Below are positions 29,419 to 43,072 of a DNA stretch of 64,000 nucleotides, piece by piece. The stretch comes from Phycisphaerae bacterium (GTDB lineage Bacteria; Planctomycetota; Phycisphaerae; UBA1845). The stretch spans positions 1 to 64,000 of the forward strand of contig JAJDDX010000046.1 of the NCBI GenBank assembly GCA_029260055.1, written 5' to 3'. The notes below the pieces were generated by a model. It worked only from the letters and a program-made list of their open reading frames with translations, did no database searches and was not told the DNA's origin. Numbering within the stretch: position 1 is the first letter of the stretch; each line of letters starts with the position of its first letter. The translations under genes were made by a program, and so were the position numbers.

Positions 29419-29553
29419 CGCACACGGCGTAGCGTAACGTCGGTAGTTCGGCATGACTGCACGCGAGACGCCGGGACGGCTGTCCCCAAGACGACGAACT
29501 CGCACAGTCTCCTCCCCGTTTGACATCGCCCATTCGTGTGCTACAATTGCATA

Positions 29554-29997
29554 ATGACGCAAATAAACAAGAAAAAGACGGATGATCAGTCCGCGGCCTG
29601 TTGTCCAACCTCAGGACGCAGCCTCGGGAAGGACCTTGGAGGGGTCATGGAACCCGGGTTCTTCAAGGCCCTGTGCGACCCCGGGCGGGTCGCCATGCTG
29701 GTTCGGCTGGCTCAGTGCTGCAAGCCGTGCACCGTGACCGAGGTAGCTGACGGCTGTCCGGTGGACGTGTCGGTCGTCTCGCGGCATCTGGCGATGCTCC
29801 GGGACGCCGGCGTGCTCGAAGCCAAGCGGCAAGGAAAAGAGGTCTACTACACCGTGCGATACTCGGCCATCATCGAGACGCTACGGGCTATTGCGGATTG
29901 CATCGAGGCGTGCTGCCCGCCGGGTGGCGAGCCCACGACGACGGGCGATCAGCCCACGACGCCGAGCGGCAAGCCCACGAAAGGAACCAAACGATGA
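29554..29997 (+). CDS. arsR: ArsR/SmtB-family metalloregulator with Cys-rich termini
   Basis: FFKALCDPGRVAMLVRLAQCCKPCTVTEVADGCPVDVSVVSRHLAMLRDAGVLEAKRQGKEVYYTVR. Confidence 0.88.
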   Translation: MTQINKKKTDDQSAACCPTSGRSLGKDLGGVMEPGFFKALCDPGRVAMLVRLAQCCKPCTVTEVADGCPVDVSVVSRHLAMLRDAGVLEAKRQGKEVYYTVRYSAIIETLRAIADCIEACCPPGGEPTTTGDQPTTPSGKPTKGTKR

Positions 29998-30848
29998 ACG
30001 AACATGACGAACTTCGCGGCCACGTGTCCAAGGCCTACGCCGAGGCCGTGACGAAGCAGGCCGGTAGCTGCTGTTGTGGTGGCGAGCCTGCGCAAAGCGG
30101 TGCGCTGGCCAAGCTGGCGGGCTACAGCAAAGAGGAACTCGACGCCCTGCCCGCAGACGCGGTGACCAACTCGTTCGGCTGCGGCAACCCGGTCATCTTC
30201 AGCGGCGTGAGCGAAGGTGACGTGGTCGTGGACCTCGGGTCGGGCGCGGGGATCGACCTGCTTCTGGCGGCCAAGCGCGTCGGTCCGACCGGCAGGGTCA
30301 TCGGCGTCGACATGACGGACGAGATGATCGAGCGGGCGAGCCAAAACATCGCAGCCGCCGGTCTTACCAACGTCGAGGTCCGCAAGGGGATCATCGAGGA
30401 CTTGCCGGTCGAAACGGGCACGGTCGACTGGGTCATCTCCAACTGTGTCATCAACTTGTCGCCGGAGAAGCCGAAGGTCTTCGCGGAGATCGCTCGCGTG
30501 CTCAAGCCCGGCGGCCGGATGCTCGTCTCTGACGTGGTCGTGCGGGATTTGCCCTTGGAGATTCGCGAGAACCAGGCTTTGTACAACTCGTGCGTGGCCG
30601 GTGCGATCAGCGAAGGTGACTACGTCGCCGGGCTCGAAAAGGCCGGGCTCGGGGATGTCGAGGTGCGCGACCGCATCACCTACGAGGCGTCGCAGCTCAC
30701 CGCGTTCATGCAGGGCGACCTGGCCGAGATCAACCGCACGCTGGCCGATTCGGGCAAGCCGCTGGTGGAGGCCGACGCGTGCGGGCTCGCGGAGTCTCTG
30801 GCCGGCAAGGTCTGGAGTGCGATCTTCTTCGCGCGACGCACGGAATAA
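29994..30848 (+). CDS. arsM: Arsenite methyltransferase
   Basis: NSFGCGNPVIFSGVSEGDVVVDLGSGAGIDLLLAAKRVGPTGRVIGVDMTDEMIERA; DWVISNCVINLSPEKPKVFAEIARVLKPGGRMLVSDVV; ATGA overlap with arsR. Confidence 0.9.
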   Translation: MNEHDELRGHVSKAYAEAVTKQAGSCCCGGEPAQSGALAKLAGYSKEELDALPADAVTNSFGCGNPVIFSGVSEGDVVVDLGSGAGIDLLLAAKRVGPTGRVIGVDMTDEMIERASQNIAAAGLTNVEVRKGIIEDLPVETGTVDWVISNCVINLSPEKPKVFAEIARVLKPGGRMLVSDVVVRDLPLEIRENQALYNSCVAGAISEGDYVAGLEKAGLGDVEVRDRITYEASQLTAFMQGDLAEINRTLADSGKPLVEADACGLAESLAGKVWSAIFFARRTE

Positions 30849-33660: not shown

Positions 33661-34740
33661 CTACCCGCCTTCGTTGGCGCTGTCTTCGTCCTGGTCTTCT
33701 GAAACCACCAGCAGCGGAATCGCTTCGCCGAGTCGCGTGAGGGTGCCGAGTTCGGCAAATCGTTCGTTTTGCAGATGGCTGACCTTCTGCTCACACCATG
33801 AACGCTCGGCCTTGGAATCCTCGCCGGTCAACTTGGCCCGCCACGATTCGAGGATCTCGATCTCGACCAACGTGACCGCTCGGACGGCGTCGCCACGGGC
33901 TTGCTTGCCGGCGAACCACTCGTGGCACAATTCCTCCATCTGCGTAAGAAGTGCCAGGCCCGCGACGTGGCCGCCTCGGTTCGCCGTGAGCTGGCACCTC
34001 AATACGCGCGCGAAGAAAGTGTAGCGCATGGTCTCAGGCCGAAGTGTGGCAAGTGGACGATCGAGGATCGACAAGGCCGGGCCGGGATCCTCCTCATCCG
34101 CGCGCAGCGCGGCCTGCCACAGTGCCGCAGCGGCTGCGACTCGCGGGTCGCGGTCCTCGAGCAGGATTGACAGACGCGACGCGGCGCGGCGCGCGGTGCG
34201 CTTGCCATCATCCTGTTCGGCACTCAGAAACGCCCGCAGGCCGGCTGCGAAGGCGCCCAGTCTATTGTAACGATGATTCAGTTCCGCCCAGCCCTCGTTC
34301 TTCATATCGACGCCGTCATCGTCGAGGATCTTCGCAACCCGGGCGAGCGCGGCGTCAGCGCGCTCGCATGCTTGCATGATCACGGGCGCTTGCTCTGTGA
34401 CCGTTTCGTCGAGTCCCAGGAGCTTGGCCGAACACGCGGGCTCGAGTTCATACGCCAGGACGAGGTTGGCTGCTTTCAACAATGCGTCCGCCCGCGCGCC
34501 GGTATCGCCCTCGTCCTCGGCTCGCGCGAGAGCATCAGCCACACTCGCCTCGGTCGCCTTGATGAATGCGGCTTCATCTTCAAAGCCGTCAGGAGTCGCC
34601 AGTCGAGCCGGCACGGGTTCCGCTTTCGGACTGGCGGCGGACGTCTCGTCTTCCGGGCCGGGTTGCCCCGCGAGGGCGGCCAGCGCGGGCATGATGATCG
34701 CAGCCAACGAGACACATGTGATTGAAGTGTGAGCTACCAT
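33661..34740 (-). CDS. Secreted/anchored helical hypothetical protein
   Basis: MVAHTSITCVSLAAIIMPALAALAGQ signal; alpha-helical, TPR-like. Confidence 0.6.
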   Translation of the reverse strand: MVAHTSITCVSLAAIIMPALAALAGQPGPEDETSAASPKAEPVPARLATPDGFEDEAAFIKATEASVADALARAEDEGDTGARADALLKAANLVLAYELEPACSAKLLGLDETVTEQAPVIMQACERADAALARVAKILDDDGVDMKNEGWAELNHRYNRLGAFAAGLRAFLSAEQDDGKRTARRAASRLSILLEDRDPRVAAAAALWQAALRADEEDPGPALSILDRPLATLRPETMRYTFFARVLRCQLTANRGGHVAGLALLTQMEELCHEWFAGKQARGDAVRAVTLVEIEILESWRAKLTGEDSKAERSWCEQKVSHLQNERFAELGTLTRLGEAIPLLVVSEDQDEDSANEGG

Positions 34741-34971
34741 GATGGCTGCGAGTGTACCGACGAGCCGGCCTGACGGAAACCGCGCGAGGGCATGGATCTT
34801 GTCTCCGGGCAAGCTGGACTGTGACTACGTTGACGAAGCGGTTTGCCGTGCCTAGACTTCTGTGCATACGCGCCCGAAGCGGGCCGGGCACGGCGCGGCT
34901 CCGCCGCGACCGTCCTGCCTTACTGGTCTGACTTCTCCGGGTGTTGCTATCGGCATCACGGGACCGACCCA

Positions 34972-35919
34972 TTGACTCAATCGAACCTTGCACAGTCCGA
35001 AGCCGCTGAGAAACCCGTTGAGGGCCATGAGCACTCCGCCTCGACGACGCTCACGGGCCGAGCGGTCTTGTTCGTGTGGCTCATGTCGGTTCTGTTGCAC
35101 GTGGGCGGGCTTGCTTCGATGTTCGTGGTCGTCTTCCCCTACGCCTCGCGCGGCCAGGAAGAGCTGCCGTTGGCTCATGTGGATTTCGTCGGCTCGATCG
35201 ACCGGGAGCCGTTCATCAGGCCGGAACCAGAGTTGAGCTTGACCGCTACTGGTGAGGATCCTCTCGACACGCGCGTGGCCCCGAAGCCGGAAGACGGCCT
35301 GTCCGACGTCGCGATGACGAAGAAGCCCGAATTGTCGATCATCGGAATCGGTGCCGGCGGCGGCGACTTCTCCAAATACGGTCTGACGGCCGGGAAGGGC
35401 AAGGGTCCCGAGTTCTTCGGCATCGGGGGTTCGGCTCGCGGTGCTCGCCGAATCGTCTACGTGGTCGATCAGAGTGGATCGATGCTCGACACCTTCGTGC
35501 ATGTTCGTGAGGAACTCATGCGGTCGATCGGGGCGCTGCGACGCAGTCAGAAGTTCCATGTCATCTTCTTCAATGCGGGCGAGCCGCTGGAGAACCCGCC
35601 CAGGCGACTGGTCAGCGCCATCAGCGCACAAAAAACGGCTTTCTTCCGCTTTCTCGAGAATGTCTTCCCCGAAGGCAGTACGCGGCCCGGCCGAGCGCTG
35701 CGCCGCGCACTGGCCACCGAGCCGGATCTAGTCTACTTCCTGACTGACGGCGCGTTTGATGAGAGCGTCGTGGAGAAACTGGATCAATGGAATCGTGATC
35801 GTCGCGTGCGCATCTTCACGATCGCGTTCTTTGACCGCGGCGGCGCCGAGCTTCTCGAACGGATCGCAAGGGAGCACGGCGGCGAATTCAAGTTTGTGTC
35901 CGACGATGATCTTCCATAG
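34972..35919 (+). CDS. vWA-domain protein with N-terminal TonB-like TM helix
   Basis: MIDAS VVDQSGSM, LTDGAFDESV; TM VLFVWLMSVLLHVGGLASMFVVVFPY; TTG start inferred from frame. Confidence 0.75.
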   Translation: MTQSNLAQSEAAEKPVEGHEHSASTTLTGRAVLFVWLMSVLLHVGGLASMFVVVFPYASRGQEELPLAHVDFVGSIDREPFIRPEPELSLTATGEDPLDTRVAPKPEDGLSDVAMTKKPELSIIGIGAGGGDFSKYGLTAGKGKGPEFFGIGGSARGARRIVYVVDQSGSMLDTFVHVREELMRSIGALRRSQKFHVIFFNAGEPLENPPRRLVSAISAQKTAFFRFLENVFPEGSTRPGRALRRALATEPDLVYFLTDGAFDESVVEKLDQWNRDRRVRIFTIAFFDRGGAELLERIAREHGGEFKFVSDDDLP

Positions 35920-37030
35920 AGCTTCAGTTCCATCTTCGGCGCGCGTGCGCCCTTCCCGCCGTGCGGTCTTAGGAACGTGCATCGTTCTTCTTGCCGGCGC
36001 CGCCGATGCGCCGGCTGACCAAGTCGTGGTCACGGGCACAAGCTACTCGGGCGCGTCGATCCTCGGTTTGGAGGCGGGACGGCTTCGGTTTCTGACCGCC
36101 TCGGGCAAGGTACAGACACCGTGGATCAGCGAAGTAGATTGGATGATCATCGATCGCGGGGTCGCGTTGGCGGACTTGAACGAGGCCGAGCAATACGTCA
36201 GCCATGACGATCCGGGCAGAGCGATCGAGAGATACCGTCGCGCGCTCCGCACATCCGACCCCTCATGGGCGGAACTCATTGAAGTCCGGTTGCTTTCGGC
36301 GTGCGACCATGCCGGGCGTCTGGGAGAGTCCGCGCAGGCCTTCATTCGAGTCGTCCGTGGCGCGCAGTCAGGACCTGCGGTTGCGGCGCGCTTGATCCCG
36401 GATGTGCCGATTCGAAAGAAGAATGCCGCCGCCGGGCGTGCCGTCCAGATCCTCGATACCGCCATCGAGAAGGCCGAGACCGAAGAGACGAAGGCGATGT
36501 ACCGCCTGCTGAGATTCGATGTGCTCCGGTTGACCGATGATCAGCGGGCGGCGGCGGACGCACCGAACGTCGTCGCACTGACCGTGCCTTCCGATGCCCG
36601 GAGCCGGCGTGTTTTCGACATCAAGCTCGCCGCGCTGACGATCGTCGCCGCCGGCTCGGTGGATGCCGTGTGGTGGGACGGGCTTGATCGAGCGATCCGC
36701 GTGGCACCGCAGGAGAATCTGGCGGGTTTGCTGATGCTGAAAGGCCGGACGCTGGCCAAACATGCCTCCACGCGTGAGGATATGATTCGTGCCAGTTGGC
36801 CGCTCATGCGCGTGGCCATCCATTTGCGCGACGATCCTGCCGTGGCCGAGGCGCTGTATGAAGCCGCGCTCATCGTCGAGCGGCTCGGTCGACTGCAAAA
36901 GGCCGTGGTGCTCTTGGCCGAGTGCCTGGCCCACAAGAGTTGCGACGAGCCCGTGCGGGGACTCGCTTCCGAGGCCATGGTGCGCGTGCGCGAAGCTCTG
37001 GCGCGCGTGGGGCCGAGCAGTGGTTCATAG
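35906..37030 (+). CDS. Secreted TPR-like hypothetical protein
   Basis: Overlaps end of vWA gene by 14 nt; signal RAVLGTCIVLLAGAADAPA; helical repeats. Confidence 0.6.
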   Translation: MIFHRASVPSSARVRPSRRAVLGTCIVLLAGAADAPADQVVVTGTSYSGASILGLEAGRLRFLTASGKVQTPWISEVDWMIIDRGVALADLNEAEQYVSHDDPGRAIERYRRALRTSDPSWAELIEVRLLSACDHAGRLGESAQAFIRVVRGAQSGPAVAARLIPDVPIRKKNAAAGRAVQILDTAIEKAETEETKAMYRLLRFDVLRLTDDQRAAADAPNVVALTVPSDARSRRVFDIKLAALTIVAAGSVDAVWWDGLDRAIRVAPQENLAGLLMLKGRTLAKHASTREDMIRASWPLMRVAIHLRDDPAVAEALYEAALIVERLGRLQKAVVLLAECLAHKSCDEPVRGLASEAMVRVREALARVGPSSGS

Positions 37031-37038
37031 GGAGCGTG

Positions 37039-37057
37039 CTAACGAGAATCTCGTTAG
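37039..37057. promoter_or_regulatory. Perfect palindrome upstream of exbB, possible operator
   Basis: CTAACGAGA-A-TCTCGTTAG, 53 bp before the ExbB ORF start. Confidence 0.4.
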
Positions 37058-37091
37058 TGCGACATAGAGTGACATTAAGCGGGAGAACGAA

Positions 37092-37904
37092 GTGTTCTTA
37101 CGAATCGGTATGATGGCGGTTGCGGCCGCGGCGGTCGTGTGTCTTCTTCTCGCACTTCCCGCGGTGGCGCAGACCGGGTCGGGCGCCGTCGACGCGAGTG
37201 CGTCCGACATCAACTACTTCGACTTCTTCGTCACCAAGGGCGGCTGGATCACCTTCGGATTGATCCTGCTCTCCATCGTCACGATCGCACTCACGATCGA
37301 ACATGCCATGTCGATCCGCCGTGCCACGATCGTGCCGCCGGATGCGCTCGAACGCACGCGCGCCTATATCGACAAGAAGCAATACCTGGAAGCGATCAAG
37401 TTCACCGCCGACGAGCCCAGCATGTTGGGGCACGTGCTCCATGCCGGCCTGACGGAAGCGTCGAACGGCTTCACGGCGATGGAGCGGGCGTTGGAGGAAT
37501 CGCTCGAGGAGCGGTCAGCCAGGCTCTTTCGCAAGACGGAATACATGCACATCATCGGCAACGTCGCGCCGATGATCGGGCTGCTCGGCACTGTCACCGG
37601 CATGATCCTGCTGTTCGCCGAGATACATGCCGCGGACGCGTTCCCGGGCGCGCGGGACGTGGCCGATCGAATCGCCATCGCGCTGATCACGACGTTCTGG
37701 GGTCTGGCCGTCGCCATTCCCGCATTGAGCATATTCGCGATCTTCCGGAACCGGATCGACGTGTTGACGGCGGAGTGCGCTCTGGCGGCAGAGAGCGTCC
37801 TCGACGTCTTCAAACCGGGCTCGTCGGCAGCGCCGACCGCAACGGCCAAACCACCGGCCGGCGGCGCGGCTGAGACGACGCCACCTGGAACCCGCGCGAG
37901 CTAG
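37092..37904 (+). CDS. exbB: MotA/TolQ/ExbB proton channel family protein
   Basis: ITFGLILLSIVTIALTIEH; NVAPMIGLLGTVTGMILLFAEI; IAIALITTFWGLAVAIPALSIFAIFRNRID. Confidence 0.93.
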   Translation: MFLRIGMMAVAAAAVVCLLLALPAVAQTGSGAVDASASDINYFDFFVTKGGWITFGLILLSIVTIALTIEHAMSIRRATIVPPDALERTRAYIDKKQYLEAIKFTADEPSMLGHVLHAGLTEASNGFTAMERALEESLEERSARLFRKTEYMHIIGNVAPMIGLLGTVTGMILLFAEIHAADAFPGARDVADRIAIALITTFWGLAVAIPALSIFAIFRNRIDVLTAECALAAESVLDVFKPGSSAAPTATAKPPAGGAAETTPPGTRAS

Positions 37905-37909
37905 GTAAT

Positions 37910-38365
37910 ATGCGTATAGGACGCGATCGCTATTCCGGCCCCGCCACCTTGGCGTTCAATGCGACGCCGATGGTCGACATCATATTCATGCTGACCATCT
38001 TCTTCATGTTGGTCAGCCGCTTCTCCTCGGCGGAGCAGATCGCCATGCAGTTGCCCAAGCCGGACGAGAGCAAGGCGCGGGTCGAGAAGATCCGGGAGCG
38101 GGTGATCGTCAACTGTCGGCTCGAGAATCCGAACGATCCTACCAACAGCGCGGTCTTGTACAGTATCGGGCCGAACCGCCCGGAGCCGCTCGATGTACTC
38201 GCCGATCGCTTCGTGGCGATGAAACGCGAAACGCCGGGCATGAAGGTCGTCGTGCGTGCCGATCGTCGTCTGCCCTACGGCCCGGTTCGTGAAGTAATGC
38301 GGGTGATCGCGGGAAGCGGGGTCGAGGTGCTCAACGTGGTAGCGCATGTGGCGGAGGTCGAGTGA
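37910..38365 (+). CDS. exbD: ExbD/TolR family protein 1
   Basis: ATPMVDIIFMLTIFFMLVSRF; VVVRADRRLPYGPVREVMRVI. Confidence 0.92.
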   Translation: MRIGRDRYSGPATLAFNATPMVDIIFMLTIFFMLVSRFSSAEQIAMQLPKPDESKARVEKIRERVIVNCRLENPNDPTNSAVLYSIGPNRPEPLDVLADRFVAMKRETPGMKVVVRADRRLPYGPVREVMRVIAGSGVEVLNVVAHVAEVE

Positions 38366-38873
38366 CGTGATTCTGACTCCGGCGGCACGCAGACAGAGGC
38401 GACGCACCGGCATCGCGCATAGATTCCGGACGCGCGGGCGCCGCACCGGTCGACGCGGCATCTCGATCGCCGTCAACCTGGCGCCGATGATCGACGTTAC
38501 TTTCTTGCTCCTGATCTTCTTCTTGGTGACGACGACTTTCGAGCGAGCGGAAGGTCTGCTCTCCTCCGAAATGCCCGGGACCATGATGGCCCCGACCGTG
38601 GCGCTGCCGCTGAGCCCGATCGTCGTGAGACTGACGCCGGGCGACAATGGCATTGGGTCCGTGACTATACGGATCGACCGGATCGACACCCCGCCCGCCG
38701 ACTTCGAGGAGCTTGTCGCGTACTTGGGCGAGCTGCACGGGAAGCCCGGTTTCGACGAGGACACGCCCGTTGTCATCGTCGCGCATTCCGATGTGCAGTG
38801 GGATCACGTGGTCGGTGCGTGGAACGCCGTACTGCGCGCGGGCTGTACGCGAGTCGCGTTTGGAGAGCCCTGA
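38346..38873 (+). CDS. exbD: ExbD/TolR family protein 2
   Basis: NLAPMIDVTFLLLIFFLVTTTFERAEG; overlaps ExbD1 (a GTG start at 38367 is an alternative). Confidence 0.88.
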   Translation: MWRRSSDVILTPAARRQRRRTGIAHRFRTRGRRTGRRGISIAVNLAPMIDVTFLLLIFFLVTTTFERAEGLLSSEMPGTMMAPTVALPLSPIVVRLTPGDNGIGSVTIRIDRIDTPPADFEELVAYLGELHGKPGFDEDTPVVIVAHSDVQWDHVVGAWNAVLRAGCTRVAFGEP

Positions 38874-38875
38874 GC

Positions 38876-41620
38876 TTGGCGCCATGGTCACTCAAATTCT
38901 TCAGTGCGCTAGTGCTGGCGCTGTGCGGCACCAGTTACCTTCGCGCACAATCGGACGCGGAGCGAAAGCCCAAGTCCGCCGAAGCGGAACGCTTCAACAA
39001 CACGGCATTCCGCCAAGGCCTGAAGAAGCGAGGGCTGACTGAGTTGCTCGAGCTTCATCTGCGGGATCACCCGCCGACGGGCAGGACCGAGACACTGAAG
39101 CTGCAGCGCGACCTGAAACTGGCCGAGAGCGCCGATCCGAGCAAGTCACCGATCCAGCGTCGCGCGGCCGTCGCCGAGGCGAATCGCATTCTCGAGGAGA
39201 TCATCGCAGCAAACGCCGGCTCGATCGAGCGCTTCGAGTGGCGATTCGCCCTGTCGCATTCGCTCATTTACGACGAGGCTGAGCCGTTGTTCACGGCGAT
39301 TCTGTACCGTGGCGGCAACGCCGAGACGCGGCGCCGACTTCGCGAGCTCACGACGCGCGCGCTAAGTGTGCTGGCAACCCTGAACGAAGACATCGAGTCG
39401 GAATACGATCGCATCGACAACCTCGAAATCAGGGAGTTTGAGCGGCTGGAACGCAACGGGCACGTGGAAGCACTGGATCGCTTGGGCCCTAGAGCCACCT
39501 ACCTTACGCTCTGGACCCTGCTGTACGATTCCCTTTCGCGCGCTGAAGACGATTCCGTGCGGGCGAGTCGACTCAATCGTATCCTCGCCATGCTCGATTC
39601 GGATGCGTCGGTTATCGAAACGCCGCACGCGGACAGCAAGGTGCAGGTCCAAGCCTTGCTGCTTACCGGTATGGCCTACCGCCTCTTGAACGACCACCCT
39701 ATGGCACGCGAGTTTCTGGAGCGAGCACTGGCTGTGGCGTCACGGCTTGACGATCCGACTGAGCGGCTGCGCATCGAATGGGCGGTTCGTCTGGCTTCGA
39801 TCGAACGCATTCGCAACCACCGTGACGACGGCAGATACGAGCAAGCGCTCAAGCGGATTCGGAACTTGCGCCGTACGGTGGTCACGGACGAAGGTGACGA
39901 CTTCGGGTTGCTGCTTGTGGCGGCGTTGCTGGAACGCTCGGTATATACGGCCCGCGCCGACGCAGCCGACGATGCGACGACGGCACGGCGCATGCGCGAC
40001 ATGGCATGGCAGCCGCTGCTGGCGCTGATCCAGCGCCACGTCAACCGACGCGACGAAGTCTACGCGACGGTGTGTGAGACGATCGGACTCGATGCGAATC
40101 CTGCGCAGCTCGATCCGTTCGAACGTTGCGCACTGGTGGCGGGCTTGCTCTTCGAGGCCGACCGACAGGACCATGATGCCGCCGACCGACTCGCCCGGGC
40201 AATCGAGGTCGGCGAGCAGTTCGTGGCCGACGCGCCGGCGTCGGCGAAGGCGCTCGTGCCCGAGGCACTGTACAACGTGGCTGTGGCTCTCTATCGCAGT
40301 GACCGTGTCGCCGAAGCGGCTCAGCAGTTCCTTCGGGTTGCTCGAGACCACTCGGACTACGTCAACGCGGCACAGGCGGGCGTCTTCGCGGTACAGCTCG
40401 CGTCGTTGTTCTATGAGGACCCGAACCTGCGCGGCCGCCCGGACGTACTCTCGCTCTATCGTGACGCACTGGAGGTTCTCCTTCAGGAGTATGCCGACAC
40501 GGAGGCCGCTTCGTATTGGCGCTTTTACTACGCTCAACTGCTGGAAGAACTGGAATCGTTCGACGCCGCCGCGACGCAGTTTGCGCTCCTAGATCAGACC
40601 CATGAGCACTATCTTCGCAGCGTTCTGTCGCGGCTTCGGTGCATGGCGCGCGTGCTCGAGGCGCGCGCTAAGAACGAGGAGACTGACGGCACGGACTTGC
40701 GCCACCACAGTCACGAGTTCCTGGCGGTGCAGCGCGAGTTCGAGTCGCGACTCCGGCGCGAGCTCGCCCGTACGAACGATCCGGATCAAACGCTCATGTG
40801 GCGGAGCCTTCTCGCCCGGGCGACGCTCCTGCTGGCGGAGGTGCATGTCCTTCCCGGTATCGCGCGGCCCGCGCAGGCGCTGGACGTGCTCCTGGAGTTT
40901 GAGGCCACGCATCCGGCACTTACCCACCTCGCCGGAAGGGTGTGGCGTGTTCGCTTGATCGCCTACGAGAAACTCGGCCGCCTTCAAGAGGCGGCGCGGG
41001 CGATCCCGGCCTACATCGCATCGGATCCGAAACACGCGGGCCCGGCACTACAATCGCTCTACCTCGATCTGATAGACGATATCGAGCGAGCACGCACCAC
41101 AGGCAAGTCAGACGCCGCCATGGAAGAGGCGCAACTCGCACTGTTGCTGGCACAACAGGTGTACGCTTGGTCCCAGCAGCAGCCTTCTGCAGAACCGCAA
41201 GAAGATCGCCGCCTTTTGATTCAGCTTGCACAGGCTCATCTTCATGCACACAAGTATCAGCGCGCACGCGAATTGTTCGAGGATTGCGGCGCGGCTGAAT
41301 TGTCCGGCACTGCCGGTCACACCCTCGACATCGCGGTGGATTCCGGCTATGCCGAGGCGCTCTATCAGGCTGGAGATTACGCGGCCGCCTTGCCGTTGTT
41401 CAATCGCTTGGCCCTGCAACTCCCTGAGACGGATCGGCTGCGTTGGCGAGCCTTGTTGCGCGATCTTCAGTGCCGCACTGCCTTGAAACAAAGCCCTGAT
41501 GATGTGATCAAAGTGATCGAGCAGCAGAAGTACCTATACCCCAATCTTGGCGGTTCAGTGCTGGAGCCGCAATTCGACAAGCTTCTTCGCGAGAATCAGC
41601 GCCGAAAGGCGGGTGAATAG
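38876..41620 (+). CDS. Large secreted TPR protein
   Basis: TTG start 3 nt after ExbD2 stop; signal LKFFSALVLALCGTSYLRAQ; long helical repeat protein. Confidence 0.75.
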   Translation: MAPWSLKFFSALVLALCGTSYLRAQSDAERKPKSAEAERFNNTAFRQGLKKRGLTELLELHLRDHPPTGRTETLKLQRDLKLAESADPSKSPIQRRAAVAEANRILEEIIAANAGSIERFEWRFALSHSLIYDEAEPLFTAILYRGGNAETRRRLRELTTRALSVLATLNEDIESEYDRIDNLEIREFERLERNGHVEALDRLGPRATYLTLWTLLYDSLSRAEDDSVRASRLNRILAMLDSDASVIETPHADSKVQVQALLLTGMAYRLLNDHPMAREFLERALAVASRLDDPTERLRIEWAVRLASIERIRNHRDDGRYEQALKRIRNLRRTVVTDEGDDFGLLLVAALLERSVYTARADAADDATTARRMRDMAWQPLLALIQRHVNRRDEVYATVCETIGLDANPAQLDPFERCALVAGLLFEADRQDHDAADRLARAIEVGEQFVADAPASAKALVPEALYNVAVALYRSDRVAEAAQQFLRVARDHSDYVNAAQAGVFAVQLASLFYEDPNLRGRPDVLSLYRDALEVLLQEYADTEAASYWRFYYAQLLEELESFDAAATQFALLDQTHEHYLRSVLSRLRCMARVLEARAKNEETDGTDLRHHSHEFLAVQREFESRLRRELARTNDPDQTLMWRSLLARATLLLAEVHVLPGIARPAQALDVLLEFEATHPALTHLAGRVWRVRLIAYEKLGRLQEAARAIPAYIASDPKHAGPALQSLYLDLIDDIERARTTGKSDAAMEEAQLALLLAQQVYAWSQQQPSAEPQEDRRLLIQLAQAHLHAHKYQRARELFEDCGAAELSGTAGHTLDIAVDSGYAEALYQAGDYAAALPLFNRLALQLPETDRLRWRALLRDLQCRTALKQSPDDVIKVIEQQKYLYPNLGGSVLEPQFDKLLRENQRRKAGE

Positions 41621-41773
41621 GCTCCTCTGTACGCCGCGCGGACGTGGGCGACCTGTGGTCCCACTCCGCCGCCGGCATCGATGCGCCGGGTTTGCGCTTG
41701 CAGCGGGCACGCGTTTTCCCGATAATGGGATATGTCCGTTTGGGCCTGTACTGCGCTGTCTAAGGAGAACACC

Positions 41774-43072
41774 ATGACGCATTTCCTGTCGCCTTACAGG
41801 CTTCTTATTCCTGTCTTGGCTCTGTCCGCGGTCGCTGCCGTCGGCCTGGCAGCGGACAAGCCCGAGAAGAAGGCTAAGATTGATCCCAAGGCGGACGAGG
41901 TGCTGCACCGTTTGAGCGATCACATGCGCGGTCTCGACAGTTTTCGCTGCAAAGCGACGATGGATTGGCATGTCAAAGTGAAAGAGGGGCGCGGCCACAG
42001 GGGCCTGAAGTACAGCGTCGTACTCGACCGCCCGGATCGCATCGCACTCAGTCAAAAGGGTGGAAAGCACGGGAAGGTGGGCGCTACCGTCGTCGACGAC
42101 GGGACGAACCTCTTTGCCTACCTGCCGGAACGTCAGGCCTATTCACTCGAGGCTTCCGCCGAGACGTTCGAACCGGTTACGTTCGCGATCGGATTGGCTG
42201 CGCATGTAACCGCCATGCCCGCGATCAACGCGATCAACGCACTCGTTCAGGACGATCCGTACACTGCGCTCATGGAAGGCGTGACCAAGAGTGAGTACGT
42301 GGGCGAACAACGGCTTGATACATTCAACTGCGATCATGTGAAACTGATCGAGGACGACCTCGTACGGCAACTCTGGATCAGGCAGGGCGACGAACCGATC
42401 GTCGTTCGTTTCGAGAGCGATCTTCCTGAGAACGATACACGGATCGGCGACAACCGCTACGCCGTCAAAGCCGGCGAGAGGCTCTACGTCCGCGCCGCGT
42501 TCAAGAAGTGGAAGCTGAACATGAAGGCTCGCGACCGAGACTTCAAGTACAAGGTTCCCAAGAAGAAGGGCGTGCAGAAGATAGACGCAGTGGAGGCGCT
42601 CGCGCAGGTATATCCTCCCCATCCACTGCTCGGCAAGAAGGCTCCGAAGATCAAGACGGACCTGCTCGCCGGCGGTAAGTTCAATCTCTCCGATCACAAG
42701 GGCTCGGACATCGTGGTGCTCGACTTCTGGGCGACCTGGTGCGGGCCGTGCGTGATGGCACTTCCCGTGTTGATCGAAGTCACGGACGAGTACAAAGACC
42801 GCGGCGTGCGCTTCGTCGCCGTCAACCAGCGCGAGCAGAAAGAGCTGATCAAGGGCTTCCTCGAGGCGCGCAAGTTCGACTTCACCGTGGCTATGGACAA
42901 GAAGGGCGCCATCGGGCAGAAGTACTACGTGTCCGGCATTCCCCAGACGGTCATCATCGGTCCCGACGGCACCATCCAGGCGATACACAACGGCTTCTCG
43001 TCGGACATGAAAGAACTACTCAAGAAAGAGATCGAGACGCTGCTTTCCGGCAAGAAGCTGGTCAAGTCGTGA
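41774..43072 (+). CDS. DUF2092-like domain fused to TlpA/redoxin thioredoxin domain
   Basis: DEVLHRLSDHMRGLDSFRCKATMDWHVK...; VVLDFWATWCGPCVMALPVLIEV. Confidence 0.8.
   Translation: MTHFLSPYRLLIPVLALSAVAAVGLAADKPEKKAKIDPKADEVLHRLSDHMRGLDSFRCKATMDWHVKVKEGRGHRGLKYSVVLDRPDRIALSQKGGKHGKVGATVVDDGTNLFAYLPERQAYSLEASAETFEPVTFAIGLAAHVTAMPAINAINALVQDDPYTALMEGVTKSEYVGEQRLDTFNCDHVKLIEDDLVRQLWIRQGDEPIVVRFESDLPENDTRIGDNRYAVKAGERLYVRAAFKKWKLNMKARDRDFKYKVPKKKGVQKIDAVEALAQVYPPHPLLGKKAPKIKTDLLAGGKFNLSDHKGSDIVVLDFWATWCGPCVMALPVLIEVTDEYKDRGVRFVAVNQREQKELIKGFLEARKFDFTVAMDKKGAIGQKYYVSGIPQTVIIGPDGTIQAIHNGFSSDMKELLKKEIETLLSGKKLVKS

Follow-up and report, generated by a model that had tools for sequence, protein, structure and literature searches.

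In other bacteria, membrane motors of the ExbBD type drive the uptake of nutrients and the maintenance of the outer membrane, and to our knowledge the transmission of force from the inner to the outer membrane is known in detail for TonB and TolA only. A gene cluster from a Phycisphaerae bacterium (GCA_029260055.1, contig JAJDDX010000046.1, positions 1-64,000, the whole stretch of DNA analyzed here and hereafter the window) raises the question of which protein would serve as the arm of such a motor when neither is encoded beside it. The original prediction was that a vWA protein replaces TonB or TolA as the transducer, and its observation that tonB, tolA and receptor genes are absent from the cluster was borne out. 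The genome that holds the window comprises 7.6 Mb in 500 contigs, and the closest relatives of the window ExbB in named records come from Phycisphaerae and other Planctomycetota MAGs.

The co-directional gene set lies on the forward strand, with its open reading frames confirmed where they had been predicted. It opens with the vWA force-transducer candidate (34972..35919, +, with a TTG start assumed), which consists of a TM helix, a linker and a vWA domain (Pfam VWA, 8e-8), and continues with a small secreted TPR protein (35906..37030, +) built from a signal-like segment, a beta domain and a TPR solenoid. An ExbB/TolQ-like pentamer subunit (37092..37904, +) was assigned by Pfam (MotA_ExbB, 1.6e-27) and by conserved residues, and is followed by two TolR-like subunits, ExbD1 (37910..38365, +) and ExbD2 (38346..38873, +), which match Pfam ExbD at 8e-18 and 7e-15, belong to different subfamilies and carry an invariant TM aspartate at equivalent positions (Asp23 in ExbD1). 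The set closes with a large secreted TPR protein of 914 aa (38876..41620, +) that has a signal peptide and no clear lipobox. Pfam TPR models match both TPR genes, weakly in the case of the small one. The predicted divergent secreted helical protein is likewise present beside the vWA set (33661..34812, -); it has no Pfam match over the cut-off and no NCBIfam match, and is equally placed in the family of the window and in one neighbouring family. The downstream thioredoxin/DUF2092 gene (41732-43072) is not conserved alongside the vWA-ExbBD set. No RNA families were found in the window, and reading the translations by eye revealed an arsenite-methyltransferase-like gene behind that of an ArsR-type regulator at 29536-30848.

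A three-domain topology is predicted for the vWA protein by AlphaFold2 (59 homologues), with a TM helix at residues 29-58 (pLDDT about 95), a disordered linker at about 60-155 and a vWA fold at residues 158-310 (pLDDT about 97). The TM helix contains no Asp. Previously proposed vWA transducers have a motor-box beta strand behind this helix (PMC12204202); the window protein has a beta-prone stretch there (LPLAHVDFVG), which forms no strand in the AF2 monomer. Across the homologues the linker spans 97-143 residues (median 108). The vWA domain harbors a complete MIDAS (D166, S168, S170, T237, D259), with D166 and D259 kept in 59/59 aligned homologues, and a Foldseek search with it (match E 5e-11) identified the vWA domains of inter-alpha-inhibitor, calcium-channel alpha-2/delta, CLCA1 and bacterial BatB as the closest solved folds. 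An adhesive role for this tip, as originally proposed, is conceivable. In the small TPR protein, a small beta domain (residues 38-81) precedes a TPR-like helical solenoid (AlphaFold2, mean pLDDT 91.8) for which a fold search returned generic TPR matches only, while the large TPR protein has a weak match, below the cut-off, to TIGR02795 (YbgF/CpoB).

The TM helix carries the feature that first suggested a TonB-like arm. The S-x3-H motif claimed for it was located within the helix at S39 and H43, and is present in the TM of 59/60 vWA homologues examined: a motif-blind hydrophobicity scan to pick the TM segment recovered it in 56/60, three more were recognized by inspection, and the remaining one is a secreted vWA protein that lacks such a helix. 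(The 59/59 occurrence in the alignment is partly by construction, its rows having been trimmed by the motif.) Against this stands a background of 2/618 hydrophobic segments in other, unrelated ORFs of the same loci, and 0/3 among three further vWA proteins encoded in the same genome as the window. Exceptions within the phylum comprise A-x3-H in both vWA genes of one locus (L132) and T-x3-H in another (L151). Only the S-H half of the longer SHLS motif is conserved in the sequences of the Phycisphaerae vWA homologues, the +11 Leu being present in 12/59 and the +15 Ser in 1/59; the window protein has M50 and V54 at these positions.

The residues expected of a proton-driven motor are similarly well kept. 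In ExbB, T167 and T201 are invariant (30/30), P210, which we equate with the TM3 Pro, is found in 26/30, and S61 of TM1 is kept in 28/30 and aligns with the TM1 Ser of TolQ/ExbB; the TM Asp of ExbD (D23) is present in 43/43. The TM1 Ser of TolQ/ExbB, named together with the TM1 Trp, has been connected to the Ser and His of SHLS (PMC12905483), and in the vWA-linked ExbB family the Trp position is mostly Ile, Val or Leu. Some relatives carry a single ExbD, so the ExbD pair is not obligatory, and the two ExbDs of the window may form a heteromeric ExbD1/ExbD2 dimer. In-frame stops within some ExbB matches were taken as an alignment artefact, as in the case examined (G011/L060) the match overruns the gene's own stop. 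Four ExbB-family matches exist in the genome, namely that in the window, an ExbB-ExbD pair on contig C226 and matches on C168 and C498; the C168 match was rejected as a further transducer motor as it is the flagellar MotAB, and the weak one on C498 is an ORF of 205 aa, MotA-like and situated in the vicinity of complex I genes.

Transducers with this architecture have been proposed before. In planctomycetes and further phyla, Williams-Jones et al. 2025 (PMC12204202) recognized vWA 'force transducers' of the inner membrane that consist of a TonB-like TM helix, a linker of ~100 residues and a vWA tip; their genes neighbour TPR and tolQ-like genes and a pair of tolR-like genes. Their AF3 model docks the TM helix of relatives on the motor, the phenotype is not known, and SHLS is described for many members (PMC12204202), so that the full motif is not obligatory. 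The idea of a vWA transducer was thus already published in 2025, the original prediction matches it, and the window provides an additional member of that family; added here are the class-wide distribution, the exbB linkage, the conservation of S-x3-H and the motor-side residues. The window shares with the published family the Ser/His TM helix, the disordered linker of about 100 residues, the vWA tip, the TPR, tolQ-like and paired tolR-like neighbours, and Planctomycetes among its hosts. It differs in gene order, with vWA leading the set instead of following the motor, and in having two TPR genes; in Phycisphaerae, moreover, neither the L nor the final S of SHLS is conserved, and tandem vWA copies and motor-less paralogues occur. 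Members of the second family in that study, the TPH-vWA proteins, also place a TM-tethered vWA beside a tolQ-like gene, but have no exbD and carry a proton-binding Asp in the vWA TM (PMC12204202), in contrast to the two exbD genes and the Asp-free TM helix found here.

To establish how widespread the set is, we surveyed 150 Phycisphaerae genomes, counting ExbB relatives at E <= 1e-18. A vWA relative is found in 145/150 and an ExbB relative in 142/150, and of the 90 genomes with coordinates listed for both, 79 have the vWA gene no more than 2.8 kb from ExbB; ten of the 11 unlinked cases are on different contigs and one has the genes far apart on one contig. This neighbourhood check had been set beforehand, and its outcome is that vWA homologues are generally linked to exbBD. 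In one layout, vWA is followed by a TPR gene of about 350-390 aa, ExbB, ExbD and ExbD, often with a large TPR gene added; in the other, vWA directly abuts ExbB. A TPR gene of the small kind sits between vWA and exbB in 33 loci. In several loci a single motor is preceded by two or three vWA genes, and in one of these (L066:9037-17869) three tandem vWA and two TPR genes stand ahead of one ExbB and three ExbD. The linked vWA-motor set also extends to other families of the phylum, in which further vWA copies lack a motor gene in the 20 kb retrieved and nonetheless retain S-x3-H, which suggests that several arms share one ExbBD motor.

The pattern of the known transducers across the same genomes is quite different. 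TonB_C is detected in 68/150 and TolB_N in 1/150, making the vWA set the most widespread ExbBD-type transducer detected in Phycisphaerae; at the level of sequence, the gene set, its linkage, its conserved residues and its distribution are all established. The window's genome harbors no TolB_N, and neither TonB_C nor TonB_2 has a match over the cut-off in the whole assembly, which led us to reject a canonical TonB elsewhere in the genome. Across the class, a co-varying canonical TonB was sought and none emerged, with vWA present in 66/68 TonB-positive and 79/82 TonB-negative genomes; together with the 79/90 linkage, this supports the vWA protein as a transducer in place of TonB or TolA. A Tol-Pal system in disguise was also rejected, given the single TolB_N and a Pal model over the cut-off in 0/150 genomes, the matches in the window's genome all being below it. 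Weak Pal-like matches of the OmpA type do occur in 148/150 genomes, so a diverged tether between outer membrane and peptidoglycan may exist in the class. Tol-Pal in Planctomycetes has been described as largely reduced (PMC8871954).

The window can also be compared with the well-known systems. In common with TonB-ExbB-ExbD it has the ExbB and ExbD motor residues and an N-terminal S-x3-H TM helix, linker and globular tip, but it lacks the TonB C-terminal domain and a linked receptor, and has a vWA/MIDAS tip and paired ExbD instead. In common with Tol-Pal (TolQRA-TolB-Pal-CpoB) it has a TPR partner gene and near-universality in its class, and the best-scoring model is TolQ for its ExbB and TolR for each of its ExbDs, with all scores far below the cut-off; in contrast, there is no TolB, no Pal equivalog over the cut-off and no TolA C-terminal domain.

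We consider it probable that the gene set specifies a 5:2 ExbB-ExbD motor, powered by the PMF, in which the vWA protein serves as the pulling arm in place of TonB or TolA. We infer that the N-in TM helix of the arm would use its Ser and His to dock beside one of the ExbB subunits, and that protons passing the aspartates of ExbD and the threonines of ExbB would turn or wrap the ExbD pair against this arm. Force would pass along the linker to the vWA tip, which could hold a periplasmic or outer-membrane partner through its metal site, with the two secreted TPR proteins likely acting as adaptors or coordinators in a role comparable to that of CpoB. The most likely job would be general, Tol-Pal-like upkeep of the outer membrane and envelope rather than uptake of a single nutrient, an argument from distribution, as TolB is essentially undetected, TonB is patchy and the vWA set is near-universal.

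Other readings of the same parts have to be weighed. The vWA protein might energize TonB-dependent receptors in the stead of TonB. Receptors do occur elsewhere in the window's genome, with three in tandem on contig C150 (L098:9041-15392) and no detected TonB, and 24/150 genomes, that of the window included, have plug domains without a TonB_C match. However, of the 150 genomes, 60 contain plug domains, and vWA is equally frequent with them (58/60) and without them (87/90), indicating that its presence does not track receptors. Moreover, the vWA fold is not known to bind a TonB box, motor genes are absent from the receptor loci retrieved, and a diverged TonB may have escaped detection, and we therefore regard this reading as very unlikely.

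Two further alternatives were considered. The AglQRS-Glt system combines one TolQ-like and two TolR-like subunits with TPR proteins and a vWA protein, a part list similar to that of the window, and the motor could drive a surface motility or adhesion machine like that of Myxococcus, with the vWA tip on or as an adhesin; a gliding role has been suggested for the vWA family (PMC12204202). The vWA protein of the window is, however, held at the inner membrane by a TonB-like helix rather than being an outer-membrane lipoprotein, and near-universality in the class fits housekeeping better than motility, making such a machine unlikely. Proteins with a vWA/MIDAS domain also often serve as assembly factors with partners, BatB is among the structural matches, and the full SHLS motif is not kept, all of which would suit a protein that is anchored in the membrane and acts as a chaperone for the motor or the TPR proteins, or helps to assemble them, with S-x3-H making some other contact. 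This we judge quite unlikely, since S-x3-H is nearly invariant at the TonB/TolA spacing, the serine on the side of ExbB is retained and the linker agrees in length with domain II of the transducers proposed in PMC12204202. If the vWA protein is indeed the arm, a class with no detectable TolB (the single TolB_N aside), patchy TonB and a near-universal vWA motor would mean that tip and target are exchangeable while motor and docking helix stay constant, and Phycisphaerae would be a natural setting for finding the partner of the vWA arm.

A second candidate non-TonB arm is found in the window's genome itself. The C226 locus (L095:4548-13307 in genome G000) encodes a TPR protein, ExbB, ExbD and a 1429-residue protein composed of PD40 repeats, three TM segments, a long linker, a squalene-hopene-cyclase-like domain and CarboxypepD_reg, with S-x3-H in the third TM helix. 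Relatives of this arm are present in 27/150 class genomes, adjoin ExbB and ExbD in 20/20 loci around the best matches and keep S-x3-H in 19/20, the exception (L121) having A-x3-H; we found no description of an arm of this type in the open-licence literature. A tentative joint reading, possible though we would not favor it, is that vWA-ExbBDD took over the Tol-Pal job and that the S-x3-H helix is a modular plug for several arms, namely the linked vWA, the tandem vWA, the motor-less paralogues and the PD40/squalene-cyclase-like arm. If that were true, TonB and TolA would be two among a wider set of arms. Among genomes of the window's order, those with plug domains more often have the squalene-cyclase-like arm as well (10/11 genomes with a plug versus 4/13 without; Fisher p 0.005, relatedness ignored), and class-wide the association is not clear (p 0.08). 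One locus (L158:9058-19672 in G170) unites in one cluster vWA-ExbB-ExbD-ExbD and an ExbD with the squalene-cyclase-like arm behind it.
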